From NCBI GenBank assembly GCA_018652265.1, contig JABICL010000047.1, forward strand, positions 1 through 59,225: DNA of 59,225 nucleotides, written 5' to 3'. The stretch's first letter is position 1. Each line of letters begins with the position of its first letter. Both the position numbers and the translations under genes were made by a program. Source of the DNA: Candidatus Peribacteria bacterium (GTDB lineage Bacteria > Patescibacteriota > Gracilibacteria > Peribacterales > Peribacteraceae). Of this stretch, positions 3,168-25,014 are shown in pieces. Below the pieces are notes generated by a model. The model worked only from the letters and a program-made list of their open reading frames with translations, made no database searches and was not told where the DNA came from.

Positions 3168-4175
3168 CTAATAATCAGACATTTTAAGGTTTTCCACAAT
3201 CAGATCTGCGGTTTTTTCCCAGCTAAAACACTTAGATCTTTCTATTCCTTTTTCTGAAAGGTCTTTCCTAAGCACAGGGTCTGTGAGCACTTTTTCTAGT
3301 GCTTCAGTAATATTTCTCGTATCTTCTGGATCTATCAGTAAATTAGCGTTGCCCGATATTTCTCTTAGGCTACTTCTATTTGAGGTGATGACAGGTATTG
3401 CTAATTTCATTGCATCAAGAATTGGTATCCCAAAGCCTTCCAGTAAAGATGGATATGCAAATGCAGTTGCATCTGATAGTAGCTTGATCATTTCCTTTGA
3501 CTCTACAAATCCTTTCCATTCAACTCCATCAGATTTTTCTGCCAATTCAACTATTTCATCGTCGTCCCAGCCTCTACCACCTGCAAGTATTAGTTTGTAA
3601 TTAGTTTTAATATCTGTGGGAAGTAGATTCCATGCTTCTATGAGTTTAAGCTGATTTTTACGAGGACATAGTGTTCCTATAGAAAGAATATAATTTCCTT
3701 CAGATCTTTCTGCTTGTTCTAGGTCTGTGATAGTAGGTCCAGCATAAACTGTAACAACTTTGTTTGGATCTATATCTGGAAATCTTTTTAGAAATTCTAA
3801 GCGCGTTGAGTCACTCACTGTAAATATAATTTTTGCGTTTCTTGCTGCGCGTTTAAGTGTAAATCTTTCTATTAATTTTGCTTTTTTATCGTGCCTGTCT
3901 TTTTCAAACGCAATTAAGTCATGCACTACTATTGCATAAGGAACTTTTTTCCCAAGAAGATAGGGGACTATAAAACTAGTAGTACTCAGATATATATCTG
4001 GCACATTATTTTTCAGAAATTTTGCAGTTTTCAGATGCCAAATTGAAGATGGGTTTCCTATTCTGGATAATTCTACATTTCTCTTTTCTAGCTCATAGAT
4101 AACATTTTTGGCCCACACTCCCTTCCCAGTAGGATTTAACTTCTCAGCTTCCCGTGCATCCACCATAATATGCAT
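3168..4175 (-). CDS. Glycosyltransferase family 4
   Basis: A 335-aa GT-B fold retaining glycosyltransferase. The N-terminal half carries the acceptor-side pattern ending in VVHDL. The C-terminal half has SIGTLCPRKN and the donor-binding stretch EGFGIPILDAM, equivalent to the E-x7-E motif with Asp in the second place. It likely adds a sugar from a nucleotide-sugar donor to a surface glycan; the substrate cannot be told. TAGAAT sits 6 nt before the ATG, so the mRNA is predicted to be leaderless. A second GT4 gene is at 22020-23066. Confidence 0.9.
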   Translation of the reverse strand: MHIMVDAREAEKLNPTGKGVWAKNVIYELEKRNVELSRIGNPSSIWHLKTAKFLKNNVPDIYLSTTSFIVPYLLGKKVPYAIVVHDLIAFEKDRHDKKAKLIERFTLKRAARNAKIIFTVSDSTRLEFLKRFPDIDPNKVVTVYAGPTITDLEQAERSEGNYILSIGTLCPRKNQLKLIEAWNLLPTDIKTNYKLILAGGRGWDDDEIVELAEKSDGVEWKGFVESKEMIKLLSDATAFAYPSLLEGFGIPILDAMKLAIPVITSNRSSLREISGNANLLIDPEDTRNITEALEKVLTDPVLRKDLSEKGIERSKCFSWEKTADLIVENLKMSDY

Positions 4176-14843: not shown

Positions 14844-17390
14844 CTAGACAACAAAACTAACAATCTTGCCCTGAATGTATATAGCCTTCTTTATTTCGCT
14901 ACCTCCTAAGAATTTCTGCACATTTGGGTCTGCTGTGGCTTTTTCTATGACATCTTCCTCGGAAATGCCAGATTCTACTTCTATATTTGCACGGACTTTT
15001 CCATTTATCTGGACGACCAATGTGAAAGAATCAGATACAAGTAGCGATTCATCATAAGTAGGCCATGAGGAGTTGCTTACAAAGCCCTTGCTTTCCTCGA
15101 GCGAGACTCCTTTTAAGGAGTCGAGTCGAGAGGCTACCTCTCCACTTGCGCCGTCTGCGGCGCTCGGTCGAGGAGAGCTAGAGTGGAGCATCTCCCATAA
15201 TTCTTCTGCGAGGTGTGGAGCGAGAGGGGAGAGTAGTTTTACAAAAGCAGTTGCCGCTTCTTTTGAAGCTCCATTTTTCTCAAATTCATTTAGCAGAACC
15301 ATAAGGCTACTTATAGAAGTATTGAACTGCATTTTATTCATATCATCAGTCACTTTTTTTATAGTCTTATGTAATAGAGAAGAATCCCCACTACCCACTA
15401 CCCACCCGTCTTCGTCCGCTGTGGCGGACTTCGTCGTGGCAGGCTTACCGCTAATCGCTTGCCTGAATAGCGAATAAACTCTCTTCGCAAATCTATCAAT
15501 TCCCTTTATCCCACTATCATTCCAATCTCCACCATCTGTGAATGGCCCCATAAACATTAGATACATTCGAAATACATCTGAGCCATATTTATCTACAAAT
15601 TGATCAGGACTTACTACGTTGCCTTTTGATTTACTCATCTTCGCGCCCTGATTTGTAATAACTCCTTGATGCACCAAGCGCTGATATGGCTCTTCGTGAT
15701 TTACAAACCCAAAGTCCTTAAGTGCCATGGTTACAAATCTTGCATATATAAGATGCATACATGCGTGTTCTGATCCTCCTATATAACAATCTACTGGCAT
15801 CCATTTCTTTTCTATCTTTTTATCTACAAGAGCCTTTGCGTTACTAGAATTTAGATACATATATGAGTAAAAACTAGAGCATACAAACGTATCCATAGTA
15901 TCTACTTCTGGAATCCAGCCTTTGCCAAAAATCTTTTCTGTTCTTTCTACAAGTTCTTTTGACTCAGCAAGTGGCGCAGTGCCAGTTGGCTTAAATTCAA
16001 CATCAGTTGGAAGCTTCCATGGTAAATGTTCCTCTGGAATTGCATGTGGATTTCCTTCGGGATCGTAGACTATAGGAATTGGTGCACCCCAATATCGCTG
16101 ACGAGAAACTGACCAGTCACGAATGCGATAGTTAATACCGCGCTTTCCCAAGCCTTCTTTTTCGATGTGATTGGCAATTACATCATATGCGTCTTTCCAG
16201 CGCATGCCCTTTACAACATCTGGTGTTTGCAAAATCCCGTCTGGGGCTTTGCAATATGCATATTCCAGGTTGCGCACTTTTTCTTCTTCTTTCTCATCTT
16301 CCGGAACCATTACCGTTTTTAGAGGGATGTCATATTTTTTTGCGAAAGCAAAATCACGTTCATCATGTGCGGAGCAATTTACTATGCCTGTTCCGTAGTC
16401 AGCTACAACGAATGATGCAACCCATATAGGAAAATCGCCGGTTCCGAATGGATTGTCTACGTGCCTTCCGGTGAATATTCCTTCCATGTCATTTTCGATA
16501 TCGAATTGTCCGGATGATTTTTTGCGTGCAACTCTATTAACAAACTCCATGACTTCTGTTTCATATTTTGTGCCTTCAACCAGTTTTTGCACCATCGGAT
16601 GTTCCGGCGCAATTACTGTGAATGTTTGTGCAAGAAAAGTTTGGGGTACTGTATCAAAGACTTCAAATTCGATGTCCAAATCTTTTATTTTTTCTACAAA
16701 ATTAATGCCTTCTTTTCTTCCTATCCAATTCCTCTGCATAGTCTTGGTTTTTTCTGGCCAATCGATTTTATCTAAACCTTCAAGCAATCTATCTGCATAG
16801 TCTGTAATTTTCCAGTACCACTGAGTAAGTGGTTTTTGCACTACTTCTGCTTCACATCTTTCACATTTGCCATCCCACACCTGTTCGTTTGCGAGAACTG
16901 TTTTGCATCCAGGACAGAAATTCACAGGTGCGTCTTTTCTGTGAGCCACATCATTTTTAAACATTTGCAAAAACAACCATTGTGTCCATTTGTAATATTC
17001 TGGCGTGCTTGTATTTACAGATTTGCTCCAGTCATACATGCAACCAATTCTTTTAAGTTGCTCTGCCATTGTTTTTACATTTTCTGTAATAGATTTAGAC
17101 GGATGTACTCCAGTTTTGATCGCATAGTTTTCTGCAGGAAGTCCAAATGAATCGAATCCTATAGGAGTAAAAACATCTAATCCTTTCATTTTCATAAATC
17201 TAGCAAAGCTATCTGCTGGGCCAAAGTTATACCAGTGTCCTACATGAAGTTTGTCTCCACTTGGATATGGGAACATTACGTGCGAATAATATTTATTCTT
17301 GGCTTTTTTCAGATCTACCTCAAAAACCTTCTCTTCTTCCCATTTTTTCTGCCATTTCGACTCTATAGCCGATGGATCATAATCAGACAT
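14844..17390 (-). CDS. leuS: Leucyl-tRNA synthetase with two repeat insertions
   Basis: Class I synthetase charging tRNA-Leu. The HIGH-type motif is HVGH (49-52), the CP1 editing domain lies in the middle and KMSKS is at about 584-588. The start at 17390 (MSDYDPSAIESKW) fits the family and lies 6 nt after TATTCT on the minus strand. Two GC-rich in-frame insertions from dispersed palindromes occur after the catalytic part: about residues 645-667 (families C/D) and 737-767 (family B). Both lie in linkers, one before the anticodon-binding domain and one before the C-terminal domain. It is 848 aa. Confidence 0.96.
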   Translation of the reverse strand: MSDYDPSAIESKWQKKWEEEKVFEVDLKKAKNKYYSHVMFPYPSGDKLHVGHWYNFGPADSFARFMKMKGLDVFTPIGFDSFGLPAENYAIKTGVHPSKSITENVKTMAEQLKRIGCMYDWSKSVNTSTPEYYKWTQWLFLQMFKNDVAHRKDAPVNFCPGCKTVLANEQVWDGKCERCEAEVVQKPLTQWYWKITDYADRLLEGLDKIDWPEKTKTMQRNWIGRKEGINFVEKIKDLDIEFEVFDTVPQTFLAQTFTVIAPEHPMVQKLVEGTKYETEVMEFVNRVARKKSSGQFDIENDMEGIFTGRHVDNPFGTGDFPIWVASFVVADYGTGIVNCSAHDERDFAFAKKYDIPLKTVMVPEDEKEEEKVRNLEYAYCKAPDGILQTPDVVKGMRWKDAYDVIANHIEKEGLGKRGINYRIRDWSVSRQRYWGAPIPIVYDPEGNPHAIPEEHLPWKLPTDVEFKPTGTAPLAESKELVERTEKIFGKGWIPEVDTMDTFVCSSFYSYMYLNSSNAKALVDKKIEKKWMPVDCYIGGSEHACMHLIYARFVTMALKDFGFVNHEEPYQRLVHQGVITNQGAKMSKSKGNVVSPDQFVDKYGSDVFRMYLMFMGPFTDGGDWNDSGIKGIDRFAKRVYSLFRQAISGKPATTKSATADEDGWVVGSGDSSLLHKTIKKVTDDMNKMQFNTSISSLMVLLNEFEKNGASKEAATAFVKLLSPLAPHLAEELWEMLHSSSPRPSAADGASGEVASRLDSLKGVSLEESKGFVSNSSWPTYDESLLVSDSFTLVVQINGKVRANIEVESGISEEDVIEKATADPNVQKFLGGSEIKKAIYIQGKIVSFVV
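15090..15178. repeat. Family B palindrome (89-bp form) inside leuS
   Basis: The ends GCTTTCCTCGA and TCGAGGAGAGC are inverted copies of each other. Inside are two independent hairpins, GACTCCTT/AAGGAGTC and GCGCCG/CGGCGC, joined by GAGAGGCTACCTCTCC. It is the same length and modular order as the copy at 56883, but both hairpin sequences differ. It is translated as part of LeuRS. Confidence 0.85.
15388..15455. repeat. Families D and C composite inside leuS
   Basis: CCACTACCCACTACCCACCC, then GTCTTCGTCCGC with GGCGGAC and TTCGTCGTGGCAGGC. The GTCCGC/GCGGAC tip stem is intact. In frame in leuS, it gives the Ser/Gly/Asp-rich segment near residue 650. Confidence 0.8.
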
Positions 17391-20891: not shown

Positions 20892-21164
20892 TTAGGCTTC
20901 CTCAGGTTCTAGTACTTTCAGATTTATGCGCTGGTTTTCGTTGCCTCCAACTATTCTGATAAGTGTTCTGAGTGCATTCAAAGTTTGTCCTCCTTTTCCT
21001 ATTACTTTGCCCATATCGGTACTACTAACTTTTACAGTTAATAGTATTCCTTGTTCATCGGTTTTCCCTTCTATACTAAGACCGTCCTTATCTTCTACTA
21101 GAGATTCTAGGACATAACTTAGAAATGCGTACCCGGGTATATTTGTAGAATCAGTATCACTCAT
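20892..21164 (-). CDS. khpA: KH-domain RNA-binding protein KhpA
   Basis: A single KH domain of about 90 aa with the RNA-gripping loop GKVIGKGGQTLNALR. In many bacteria this gene follows rpsP, as here (gap of about 11 nt), and the product binds RNA with KhpB to affect cell division and small-RNA use. The ATG at 21164 is preferred to an in-frame GTG one codon earlier. Confidence 0.9.
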   Translation of the reverse strand: MSDTDSTNIPGYAFLSYVLESLVEDKDGLSIEGKTDEQGILLTVKVSSTDMGKVIGKGGQTLNALRTLIRIVGGNENQRINLKVLEPEEA

Positions 21165-21175
21165 CACTATAAAGT

Positions 21176-21610
21176 CTAGCCTTCTTTTTGTTCTGTGTCA
21201 TCAGCAGGTGCGGCTTCTTCTGCAGGTTTTTCTTCTTCAGTTTTTGGTGCTGCTTTTTCTGCAGGAGTTTCGGTTGCAGCTGGTGCTGGTGCTGCTGGTG
21301 GGGGTGCAGCTTCTTCAGGCACTTCTTTTCGTTTCTTTTTCTTTGTGTAACTTTCTACAAACTTGTCCATTCCATCCATCCCTGCATTCTTTAGCAATCT
21401 AGCTACTGTATTACTTGGTAATGCGCCTACAGACATCCAGTGGGCAATTCTTTCCTTGTTAAACTCAAATTCGTGAGGATTACGCGTTGGTAAGTAGTGA
21501 CCTAGATATTCTTTTGCTCTGCCTTTTATAGGAGAGTTTTTCTCTGTAACTACTACTCTGAATGCTGGAGCATTCCTTTTGCCGGTGCGTTGGAGTCTGA
21601 TTACTAGCAC
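21176..21610 (-). CDS. rpsP: 30S ribosomal protein bS16 with long low-complexity tail
   Basis: bS16 of the small subunit. The N-terminal about 85 residues are standard (VIRLQRTGKRNAPAFRVVV and LGHYLPTRNP). A basic KKKKRK stretch and an Ala/Pro/Glu-rich tail of about 50 residues follow, ending in an acidic patch. Typical bS16 has 80-90 aa; this has 144. The start is GTG, with TAATCT 9 nt upstream on the minus strand. It is in an operon with khpA. Confidence 0.95.
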   Translation of the reverse strand: MLVIRLQRTGKRNAPAFRVVVTEKNSPIKGRAKEYLGHYLPTRNPHEFEFNKERIAHWMSVGALPSNTVARLLKNAGMDGMDKFVESYTKKKKRKEVPEEAAPPPAAPAPAATETPAEKAAPKTEEEKPAEEAAPADDTEQKEG

Positions 21611-21667
21611 GTCCCGTAAAGATTAGATCAGAAACCGATACAAGAAAAGGGAAATGATGATGATTTC

Positions 21668-21952
21668 TTAGTTTCTTATATTTTGTACTTTCTTTATCTT
21701 CACCTGTGGATATTCATTTCTGATGTGATCTATAAGCTCTTGTGACCTCATATAGCATTCCTGAGCCTCTGATGAAGAGCTTGTAGAAACTGTGAGAATA
21801 TAATTTGAAAACTTTGTAGCTGTAACTCCTTCTCCGATTTTTTCCTCCTGTATCCATTTGTTTGCAGCATTTACAACCTGCGAAGCACTAACCTCGTTTG
21901 AGATTCCAAGTTTTTTCAGAGACTTTGGCATTAGTGTGGAGAGGCGATCCAT
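21668..21952 (-). CDS. DciA-like (DUF721) protein
   Basis: A 94-aa protein with the DUF721 pattern: a helical N-terminus, KWIQEEKIGEGVTATKFSN, the strand ILTVSTSSSSEAQEC, then a helix with ELIDHIRNEYP and a final VKIKKVQNIR. DciA proteins help load the replicative helicase DnaB. The start at 21952 (MDRLSTLM) is chosen because upstream in-frame codons lie in a low-complexity repeat. No RNA-binding features are seen. Confidence 0.65.
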   Translation of the reverse strand: MDRLSTLMPKSLKKLGISNEVSASQVVNAANKWIQEEKIGEGVTATKFSNYILTVSTSSSSEAQECYMRSQELIDHIRNEYPQVKIKKVQNIRN

Positions 21953-22041
21953 TTTTATTAGGTATGTTAGGTAAATTAGGTACATTACGTATCTTAGGTA
22001 CATAAAGTACATAAAGTACCTAATGTACGTAAAGTACCTTT
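21953..22041. repeat. Tandem/inverted TTAGGTA-type repeat, family H
   Basis: Repeated TTAGGTA(A/C)AT units on the left turn into TACATAAAGTACCTAATGTAC on the right, giving an imperfect fold-back. It bridges the DciA-like gene and the 3' end of the glycosyltransferase, whose last residues (RKVLYVH) are encoded by the repeat. Confidence 0.65.
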
Positions 22042-23066
22042 CTATAAACCTTTGCAGTTTCCTCTGCAGCCTTGGCCCAGGAAAACTTATTCGCATACAA
22101 AACAAGTTCACTCCTTAATTGTTCATTTTTCATTGTACATTGTTCATTTATCCCATTCTGGATGGAATCTGTATCTGGTTCCACAATCATTGCATGTTCT
22201 CCACAAACTTCTGGAAGACTGCCTCGATTACTTGCAACCACAGGACATCCGCATGCCATTGCTTCTATAGCAGGCAGGCCAAAGCCTTCTTCTAGTGATG
22301 GGAATACAAAACATTCAGCTGCACTTAGAAGTTTTGGTAAGTCAGCATCTTTTACATCGTCAAGAATCAAGGTGTTGTTTCTACATTTAAGATTTGCAAC
22401 TTCTTTTCCTCCTGTTGTGAGAACTAGCTTAAGTTCTTCTGGGCATGCATCTATAAGAGTTTGCACATTTTTATGCTCTTTAGATGATCCAGTATAAATA
22501 ATAAATTTTTCATTTAGATCATATCTATTTCTTACTTCAAATTTTTCATCTTCAGAAGCAGGCTTGAAATTATCGGATACTCCACCGTGAATCACAGTAA
22601 TTTTCTCTCCTATATGTTCTCCGTAAGTTTCTTTTATAGAGTCTGCAGTAAAATTACTTACTGCAATTATGTGTGCAGAATTTTTAACTGCATTGCGCAT
22701 GAGAAATTTATACGCAGATCTTTTCATAAATCCTGCTTCGTTTGGATAGTGATGAAGTATGAGATCATGAATAGTTACTACAAATGGAATAGGAGATCGA
22801 ACTGGTACATTAAAATGTGGGATATGAATCAAATCTAAACTTGCTCTTCTAATTTCTCGTGGCATTTTTATTTGTTCTCTCAGTGAGTAGTAGGGGATAT
22901 CTGGACAAATAAAAGAATAGTCCCATGGATCATTTCTTTTGCTAAGTTCTTTTGAGAGTTCTCTGGTGTATCTACCTATACCAAAAGGAGTTTTTGCAAA
23001 GCGCGCATCTATCCCAATGGTTCGACTTCGCTCACCATTTTCAGTCGTGTATGATTTATCGGTCAT
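22020..23066 (-). CDS. Glycosyltransferase family 4, second copy
   Basis: A GT-B glycosyltransferase of about 348 aa. It shows GIDARFAKTPFGIGRYTREL at the N-terminus, VVTIHDLILH, YTGSSKEHKNV, then SLEEGFGLPAIEAMACG, the E-x7-E donor-site motif. It likely builds a surface polysaccharide; the substrate is unknown. Residues 305-318 (INEQCTMKNEQLRS) come from a family F repeat inserted in frame. The start at 23066 (MTDKSY) has TATGAT 10 nt upstream; its ATG overlaps the murJ ATG on the other strand. Confidence 0.9.
   Translation of the reverse strand: MTDKSYTTENGERSRTIGIDARFAKTPFGIGRYTRELSKELSKRNDPWDYSFICPDIPYYSLREQIKMPREIRRASLDLIHIPHFNVPVRSPIPFVVTIHDLILHHYPNEAGFMKRSAYKFLMRNAVKNSAHIIAVSNFTADSIKETYGEHIGEKITVIHGGVSDNFKPASEDEKFEVRNRYDLNEKFIIYTGSSKEHKNVQTLIDACPEELKLVLTTGGKEVANLKCRNNTLILDDVKDADLPKLLSAAECFVFPSLEEGFGLPAIEAMACGCPVVASNRGSLPEVCGEHAMIVEPDTDSIQNGINEQCTMKNEQLRSELVLYANKFSWAKAAEETAKVYRKVLYVH
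22113..22154. repeat. Family F repeat inside a glycosyltransferase gene
   Basis: CCTTAATTGTTCATTTTTC, then ATTGTACATTGTTCAT. The same words (CCTTAATTGTTCA, ATTGTACATTGTT) occur in the intergenic copies at 10038 and 40806. Here it is translated in frame. Confidence 0.75.
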
Positions 23067-23082
23067 GATCAGAAGTATCATA
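23050..23082. promoter_or_regulatory. Interlocked divergent promoters with overlapping start codons
   Basis: TATGAT (plus, 23050-23055) lies 9 nt before the murJ ATG at 23065. TATGAT on the minus strand (23082 to 23077) lies 10 nt before the glycosyltransferase ATG at 23066. The two start codons overlap as CATG (23064-23067), so each -10 lies inside the other gene. Confidence 0.6.
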
Positions 23083-24405
23083 CATTCACTTGGCAGTCAG
23101 AAAAGAATAGCTGGAGGAGCTCTTATACTTGCGACAACACAATTTGGCGCAAGCTTCGCAGGGCTAATACGTGACAGGGTCCTGGCAGGAACCTTTCCTC
23201 CTGGAGTAGATCAGCTAGATACTGTTTCTGTATACATATCTGCATTTAGACCGTCTGACCTTTTGTTCCAGATGTTTGTGATGTCTGCATTTTCTGTCGC
23301 ACTAGTTCCGATGCTCGCATCGCATCTGGCACATGATCGAAAAAAGAATATGGATCAGCTTCTTACAAAAGTTCTTGTAGTTTCTGGAATTGTCTTTGGG
23401 CTATTAGCATTACTGCTTGCAATATTTATGAGAGAGCTTGCTCCTTTGTTTGTAAGTTTTCAGGGAGAGAGCTTGGAGTTATATATAAGGTTTGCAAAAA
23501 TCGCATGTTTTACAAATTTCTTATTTGTAGCTGGTAATGCATTTGGTCAGTATTTGATAGTTAGGCAAACGTACTGGTCTTATGGACTCACTCCAATTAT
23601 ATATACGGTGGGTACAATTGCAGGAGCTATATGGCTGACAGGAGCTTTCGGTCCTTATGGTCCCATATATGGAACGGTCGTAGGTGCTGCGATATATGTT
23701 TTGGTTCGTACGTGGAGTTGTATGAGGCAAGGGTTTAAATTAAGGCTAGAAAAATCAGATGATACAAAAGGGGAGTTAAAGGAAATGGGAATGCTTATGT
23801 TACCTAGAATGATTGCGCTTGGTGCTATGCAGTTTCAGTTACTTCTTTTTGATAAAGTTGCATCTGGCCTTACGCTTGGCTCAGTAACTATAAACGCATA
23901 TGCGAGAAATTTTCAGGCAGCTGCTGTTGGAGTTGTTGGAATCGCCTTGGCTCAATCTAGCTACTCACTTTTAAGTCAGGCAATTGCTCGTGGAGAAATT
24001 TCAAAATTTAAATCAATTTTACGTAAGGGTGCCTTTTTGACTGTTGGATTAACAGTGCCTGCTGCAATCGTGCTTGCATTACTTGCGCGTGTTGCAGCTA
24101 TGATTGTGAATTTGAATGACGCGCAAATAGTTTCTACTTTTGTAATTGCGCTTTCTTTGTATGCAATAAGCATTCCGTTTGAAAGTTTAAATCATCTACT
24201 TCTTCGCGCGGTTTATTCTACCAAGCACACTGCAGTGCCTGCTATGCTGACAGTTATAAATGGTGCATTGGCTATAACATGCGCATGGATATTTGCTCCT
24301 TCTTATGGAGTATTTGCTTTGGCTGTAGGATTTACTGTGGGGCAGATAGTACAGATGGTGGGACTGTGGGGATTTTTGAGGCTTAGGATCAGGAGAATAA
24401 TCTAG
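23065..24405 (+). CDS. murJ: Lipid II flippase MurJ (MviN family)
   Basis: A 446-aa MOP-superfamily membrane protein with about 13-14 helices. It moves the peptidoglycan precursor lipid II across the membrane. Family signs are GLIRDRVLAGTF near the N-terminus, the AFRPSDLLFQMFVMSAFSVA segment and PFESLNHLLLRAVYSTKHT near the end. The start at 23065 gives the usual N-terminus; longer in-frame starts run into the divergent glycosyltransferase. Confidence 0.92.
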   Translation: MIRSIIHSLGSQKRIAGGALILATTQFGASFAGLIRDRVLAGTFPPGVDQLDTVSVYISAFRPSDLLFQMFVMSAFSVALVPMLASHLAHDRKKNMDQLLTKVLVVSGIVFGLLALLLAIFMRELAPLFVSFQGESLELYIRFAKIACFTNFLFVAGNAFGQYLIVRQTYWSYGLTPIIYTVGTIAGAIWLTGAFGPYGPIYGTVVGAAIYVLVRTWSCMRQGFKLRLEKSDDTKGELKEMGMLMLPRMIALGAMQFQLLLFDKVASGLTLGSVTINAYARNFQAAAVGVVGIALAQSSYSLLSQAIARGEISKFKSILRKGAFLTVGLTVPAAIVLALLARVAAMIVNLNDAQIVSTFVIALSLYAISIPFESLNHLLLRAVYSTKHTAVPAMLTVINGALAITCAWIFAPSYGVFALAVGFTVGQIVQMVGLWGFLRLRIRRII

Positions 24406-24744: not shown

Positions 24745-25014
24745 ATGAAAAGTGTACATTTTGTAATCTCTGGAAAAGTACAAGGAGTTTTCTTTCGGGA
24801 TACTGCAAAACGCATGGCCAGCCAGATTGGTATAAAGGGTTGGATCAGAAATACAGACGATGGAACCATTGAGATTTTGGCTCAAGGTAGTGAGTCGCAA
24901 TTAAGCGAGTTTGAAAGATGGTGTAGAACTGGTCCGCCTATGGCAAAAATAGATTCAGTAGAGAAAGAAGATATGGAATGTGGGGAGTGTGTTTGTTTTG
25001 AGGTTAGGTATTAG
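24745..25014 (+). CDS. acyP: Acylphosphatase
   Basis: Hydrolyses acyl phosphates such as 1,3-bisphosphoglycerate or acetyl phosphate. The 89-aa size is typical. The catalytic Arg18 is in GKVQGVFFRDT and Asn36 is in GWIRNTDDGT, both family signatures. It stands as a single gene with its own -10. Confidence 0.94.
   Translation: MKSVHFVISGKVQGVFFRDTAKRMASQIGIKGWIRNTDDGTIEILAQGSESQLSEFERWCRTGPPMAKIDSVEKEDMECGECVCFEVRY

Follow-up and report, generated by a model that had tools for sequence, protein, structure and literature searches.

The question raised by this locus is why two genes of a Peribacteraceae bacterium begin on overlapping codons in opposite directions, and whether this arrangement has a regulatory meaning. 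The stretch analysed (contig JABICL010000047.1, 59,225 nucleotides, here called the window) contains a murJ gene and a glycosyltransferase gene (GT) that start head to head, and from the letters alone it had been suggested that their transcripts can hardly be initiated at the same time, so that lipid II flipping and glycan synthesis would exclude each other. To us the pair looks like an extreme case in a genome of mostly start-codon-initiated messages, and like a by-product of DNA rearrangement rather than a switch. The features concerned are the following.

23064 to 23067, both strands: CATG palindrome, the overlapping start codons of murJ (plus) and the GT4 gene (minus), read from the sequence and as the best-scoring starts.
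23065 to 24405, plus strand: murJ, a flippase of the MurJ/MviN family, 446 aa (Pfam PF03023, E 2.4e-39; TIGR01695, 145 bits).
22020 to 23066, minus strand: GT4-type glycosyltransferase, 348 aa (Pfam PF00534, E 4.9e-25; PF13439, E 1.3e-17).
23050 to 23055, plus strand: TATGAT, predicted -10 element of murJ, 9 nt before its ATG and inside the GT coding region (PWM 7.7).
23027 to 23032, plus strand: TTCGCT, a weak, predicted -35-like hexamer with a 17-bp spacer to the murJ -10, at the TTG peak position of the genome promoter profile.
23077 to 23082, minus strand: TATGAT, predicted -10 element of GT, 10 nt before its ATG and inside murJ codons 5-6 (Ile-Ile) (PWM 3.96; comparison with GT relatives).
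23048 to 23084, both strands: inverted repeat TGTATGAT-N21-ATCATACA, formed by both promoter boxes.
23019 to 23063, minus strand: N-terminal extension of GT, residues TDKSYTTENGERSRT, from comparison with relatives; the same DNA carries the putative murJ promoter.
24745 to 25014, plus strand: acylphosphatase gene downstream of murJ, with a counterpart close to murJ in 35 of 62 relatives.
20892 to 22111, minus strand: genes downstream of GT, namely a DciA-like gene (21668-22111), rpsP for S16 (21176-21610) and khpA (20892-21167), the block that also adjoins GT relatives.

The geometry described by the sequence-only reading is confirmed. The ATG of murJ occupies 23065-23067 and that of GT 23066-23064 on the minus strand, CATG being common to both (start distance -1), and each TATGAT (23050-23055 and, on the minus strand, 23082-23077) stands within the opposite gene, 9 and 10 nt 5' of the ATG that it precedes. 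The two boxes form the core of a perfect inverted repeat of 8 bp with 21 nt between its arms (TGTATGAT and ATCATACA); since these arms are the promoter boxes themselves, an interpretation as regulator-operator site was set aside. The pattern TATNAT-N8..11-CATG-N8..11-ATNATA has a single site in the 1.07 Mb genome, which is the junction, and the control pattern has none. A true start at an internal downstream ATG would undo this picture, but no in-frame ATG, GTG or TTG occurs between the GT ATG at 23066 and the conserved GT motif IGIDARF...GIGRYTRE, or between the murJ ATG at 23065 and the conserved GG of murJ, so that both starts stand. Alternative in-frame starts are found upstream only, namely ATG 23081 for GT, situated inside the minus-strand TATGAT, and for murJ GTG 23047 besides others; of these, ATG 23081 and GTG 23047 were scored, and neither has a promoter-like box at a suitable distance (PWM -10.2 and -2.5, versus 7.7 at ATG 23065 and 4.0 at ATG 23066). 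Neither gene has a Shine-Dalgarno motif, as judged from AGGA, GGAG and GAGG in the range before each ATG.

A simple scan for TTGACA/TATAAT between 22700 and 23500 returned no promoter, because the -35 parts at the junction are weak. As such a sigma70 scan requires a strong -35, it was replaced by a profile built from the genome itself and trained on its ATG starts, the junction genes being left out for scoring, though not for the alignment of the 138 boxes. Over 294 kb, 42.3% of 208 first-ATG starts have TANNNT 5-10 nt upstream, versus 8.3% of 193 internal in-frame ATGs, and Shine-Dalgarno-like tetramers at 4-10 nt are not enriched (4.3% of the 208 starts versus 14.0% of the internal ones). 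The 138 aligned boxes show G at the extended -10 position in 43% and T before it in 48%, A-rich third and second last positions, and T or TG at -35 (T in 53%) with a 17-bp spacer; these TGn and TTG features emerged unselected. Judged by its sequence, this pattern is that of a sigma70 promoter which runs right up to the start codon, as is characteristic of leaderless mRNA. Its commonest spacing from -10 to start is 6 nt, and the spacings at the junction are longer, yet a -10 within about 5-10 nt of the start codon, as expected of a leaderless pair, is found for murJ (9 nt) as well as for GT (10 nt, with a moderate score). The TANNNT spacing peaks at 6, 9 and 12 nt, a periodicity of three bases for which the calling of longest ORFs is probably responsible in part, because a box with TAA or TAG in frame terminates the ORF as well. 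Leaderless starts on non-standard AUA were considered for the genome and dropped, the enrichment after strong boxes being 7.1-fold for ATG, 2.7-fold for GTG and 0.9 for ATA.

When the profile is trained without the junction genes, 0.5% of 1500 internal ATGs score at least as high as the murJ box (7.7 bits) and 5.8% at least as high as the GT box (3.96 bits). From the profile test alone the promoter is therefore well supported for murJ and moderately for GT, which has no clear -35. Comparable boxes precede both genes in relatives. In 51 of 63 murJ loci (window included; the five loci without a start in the range of the script count as misses) a start close to where homology begins has TANNNT 5-10 nt upstream, versus 82 of 2298 control positions; the usual form by eye is TGCTAnnnT, 6-7 nt, ATG/GTG. 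The corresponding figures for GT are 20 of 28 relatives versus 68 of 1680 control positions, with TATNAT in 12 of the 28; this count covers 28 of 29 loci because L043, where the contig ends early, was skipped. The stretch TGTATGATAC of the GT promoter in the window recurs identically in one relative (L056). The boxes at the junction are best read as putative sigma70 -10 elements of genes that are leaderless or have leaders of 3-4 nt, and a GT promoter at this place is, as a prediction, moderately supported. One further candidate for a near-overlap at murJ (L108, gap 4) was dropped, as it has no convincing starts and a better murJ start exists further downstream.

The product of murJ belongs to the MurJ family by its profile (135.6 bits against PF03023, cut-off 27.4); with the TIGR01695 equivalog it reaches 145 bits, below the cut-off of 235.55, and its matches to solved MurJ structures are weak (best E 7.7e-9). 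Its N-terminus has normal length and resembles that of a relative, L118 (MIRNSIK versus MIRSIIH). In 23 of 58 loci, that of the window among them, the murJ start codon is part of a CATG, which means that an antisense ATG at this position is common by itself. For GT a tie to lipid II finds no support, since all its 22 NCBIfam matches score below their cut-offs; the closest solved structures by sequence are maltose-1-phosphate synthase and an inositol-phosphate glycosyltransferase. Relatives of GT have about 2-3 residues from the start to (I)GIDCRF, whereas the protein of the window is longer by about 15 residues, with TDKSYTTENGER among those upstream of IGIDARF. On this comparison the extension is lineage-specific and made of what would be the promoter DNA of the neighbouring gene. 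The -10 box of GT may be its old promoter, for which the match to L056, L059 and L060 speaks, or it may have arisen within murJ codons, for which the native N-terminus of murJ speaks.

The genome comprises 1,069,784 bases in 48 contigs, and no relative of the same genus was present among the 59 genomes searched. An alignment-based search yielded 62 murJ loci of relatives, mostly titled Candidatus Peribacteria, Peribacteraceae or Peregrinibacteria, where a single-protein query had matched none; open reading frames were called by a simple longest-frame script and not by a gene finder. Comparison of the junction in relatives, which had been proposed as a check, shows the murJ/GT pairing to be absent from all of those examined: tblastn of GT on 30 murJ loci matched only the window's own (0 of 29 other family loci), and GT is near murJ in 0 of the 62 named loci. 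These two counts are not independent, as the named loci (L061-L122) partly overlap the genomes behind the other set (L002-L030; e.g., L061 and G034). Conservation, which would be expected of a regulated pair of exclusive promoters, is thus not seen in these relatives, and so there is no sign of selection for the arrangement.

Both neighbourhoods are nevertheless conserved when taken separately. A gene on the opposite strand lies upstream of murJ in 45 of 56 relative loci scored (some frames doubtful); in L061 and L100, the two scanned, it matches PurL domains, and many others begin alike. The murJ-acylphosphatase block faces purL in most relatives. In the junction genome purL is located away from murJ on contig C1. 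There (L193, about 1480-1520) TATTCT is followed after 6 nt by ATA, with no ATG, GTG or TTG at the N-terminus defined by homology; possibly this is a leaderless AUA start or a sequence error. Relatives of GT sit with S16 in 17, KhpA in 16 and a DciA-like gene in 8 of 29 cases, as in the window. The gene nusG is near murJ in 51 of 62 relatives and in the window is found downstream on the same contig. Since the murJ side and the GT side are separate blocks in relatives, two conserved blocks have been joined at this spot. Within the block of GT, a start of the DciA-like gene at GTG 22111 would make it overlap GT (22020-22111); ATG 22012 or 22003, each with TANNNT 9 nt upstream, seems the more likely start.

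These observations have to be weighed against three other explanations. That the interlocked promoters are a selected switch enforcing alternative expression of murJ or the GT operon, and thus keeping lipid II flipping apart from glycan building, could appeal to polymerase footprints that overlap nearly completely, with -10 boxes facing each other at 21 bp, and to the competition seen at bidirectional promoters of Escherichia coli after activation of one side (PMC12825309). The same source reports in the relevant passages that sterically exclusive bidirectional promoters of E. coli show no measurable competition at basal activity but only when one direction is strongly activated. The pairing is conserved in none of the relatives examined, neither a regulator gene nor an operator was identified, and the DciA-like gene, rpsP and khpA follow GT on the same strand, so that housekeeping genes would perhaps be turned off too. 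With neither conservation nor a known regulator, and with genes of ribosomal and replication type downstream of GT, the switch is an over-reading and we regard it as very improbable. The claim of mutual exclusion thus survives in part: the boxes fit the leaderless profile of the genome as promoter elements (that of GT moderately), boxes of this kind precede each gene in relatives where the two are not neighbours, and two polymerases could hardly be accommodated at once, but a physiological exclusion of flipping and glycan synthesis is unsupported.

Somewhat less improbable, though still unlikely, is that only murJ has a promoter here, the minus-strand TATGAT being a chance match and GT being transcribed with a normal leader from further inside murJ. 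The modest score of the GT box (3.96, attained at 5.8% of internal ATGs), its missing clear -35 and its spacing of 10 nt would agree with this; the fact that 12 of 28 GT relatives carry TATNAT ahead of their start, one of them with the identical TGTATGATAC, and the lack of a Shine-Dalgarno motif before ATG 23066 argue for a promoter of its own. Finally, the junction could be a misjoin in a metagenome-assembled draft of 48 contigs, given that in every relative examined the two sides of the junction belong to different blocks. Yet not a single base of either reading frame or either promoter is disturbed at the join, to the left of which GT has no alternative in-frame start, and nusG, the usual companion of murJ, follows downstream on the same contig; we give an assembly error as little credit as the switch.

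The explanation that we prefer, and consider probable, is that both genes are leaderless or nearly so and that a lineage-specific rearrangement joined the murJ and GT blocks without creating a physiological switch. The predicted transcription starts are near 23062 for murJ and near 23069-23070 for GT; each mRNA would then have its 5' end 0-4 nt before the AUG, and the two would overlap by only a few bases. The rearrangement would have brought the murJ-acylphosphatase block and the GT-dciA-rpsP-khpA block into a head-to-head position, leaving hardly any spacer between them. In the likeliest history the GT block came to lie directly beside murJ and adopted the antisense ATG supplied by the C-preceded murJ start, and GT would since then read the murJ promoter as an N-terminal extension of 15 residues. 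As the two promoters would not be occupied by two polymerases simultaneously, mild reciprocal interference is likely, and both genes are probably expressed.

How far the junction represents its genome was surveyed in 531,662 bases (half of the genome) with 408 genes and 61 divergent pairs, using a promoter threshold of 4 bits. A supported promoter on both sides is present in 34 of the 61 pairs, with start distances from 17, 18, 18, 23, 24 and 30 bp upwards. Because of the GT score, murJ/GT (distance -1) falls just outside these 34; it is the only head-to-head overlap of starts with boxes on both sides seen among the 61. A second negative gap (-2 at 4175 by the first-ATG rule) was rejected as the product of an over-long frame. 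Putative divergent leaderless pairs with a near-palindromic shared -10 and starts 17-24 bp apart are located as follows.

Window, 1300/1318 and 4175/4192, both strands: two such pairs.
L123, 12463/12481, both strands: one pair, whose overlapping -10 boxes form the near-palindrome TGTAATATTACA.
L173, 5335/5358, both strands: one pair.
L126, 15247/15271, both strands: one pair.

By eye, a similar divergent pair is found in the window at 17390/17414.

The 16S rRNA gene of the junction genome still encodes CCTCC, so the ribosome does not rule out use of Shine-Dalgarno sequences there. In 15 of 18 family members whose 16S was read this core is changed (ACTTCC, ATCTCC, GTTTCT and others), based on 3' ends from 30 loci (L143-L172) of the 48 genomes with a match among the 59 searched. 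Inspection by eye suggests that the spacer downstream has changed to match (GGGAA, GGGAG, GGAAAC), as though a 3'-end hairpin had been retained in place of the core. For Ca. Peribacter riflensis, passages of PMC10783764 describe scarcity of Shine-Dalgarno sequences and loss of CCUCC. In the full-text literature on leaderless or Shine-Dalgarno initiation together with Patescibacteria, CPR, Peregrinibacteria or Saccharibacteria, a scope without most subscription papers and all bioRxiv preprints, leaderless promoters of this group are not treated in titles or matching passages. That Peribacteraceae are predominantly leaderless with repeated loss of the anti-Shine-Dalgarno core, and that their divergent genes pack down to a shared -10 (17-24 bp) or to one CATG with N-termini encoding each other's promoter, we hold with about even confidence. 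If they are predominantly leaderless, any C-preceded ATG would provide an incoming gene on the opposite strand with a ready start codon. The murJ/GT pair would then mark the limit of gene packing without leaders, with zero intergenic DNA and promoters inside each other's proteins. An uncultured family with seemingly mainly leaderless initiation and a decaying anti-Shine-Dalgarno would offer a natural setting to ask what the latter still serves, and gene finders that assume Shine-Dalgarno sequences may misplace starts in such genomes.

Actinobacteria, Deinococcus and archaea are known to have leaderless genes in which a TANNNT -10 immediately precedes the start codon. The genes described here resemble those genes in having a -10 6-10 nt before ATG or GTG, no Shine-Dalgarno motif, an extended TGn and a weak -35; they differ in belonging to a family of Patescibacteria and, at the junction, in two genes on opposite strands using one CATG. 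Overlapping core promoters of opposite genes, which couple two transcripts, also occur in restriction-modification systems of the EcoRV and CfrBI type (PMC5333194). According to the passages concerned, a C protein controls both directions there, whereas murJ/GT has no known regulator, and the C transcript of EcoRV differs from the predicted transcripts of murJ and GT in not being leaderless. The prokaryotic bidirectional promoters of Warman, Forrest, Stringer, Wade and Grainger (PMC12825309) are similar in that two opposite sigma70 promoters lie too close for two polymerases. The commonest start site distance given in that article's relevant passages is 18 bp, 10 and 23 bp being frequent as well, and the five other divergent pairs of the genome (17, 18, 18, 23 and 24 bp) come close to the published spacings of 18 and 23 bp. 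In contrast with those promoters, which stand back to back and share their -10, the boxes of murJ and GT neither coincide nor overlap: they face each other 21 bp apart on the outside, with the two starts overlapping between them.
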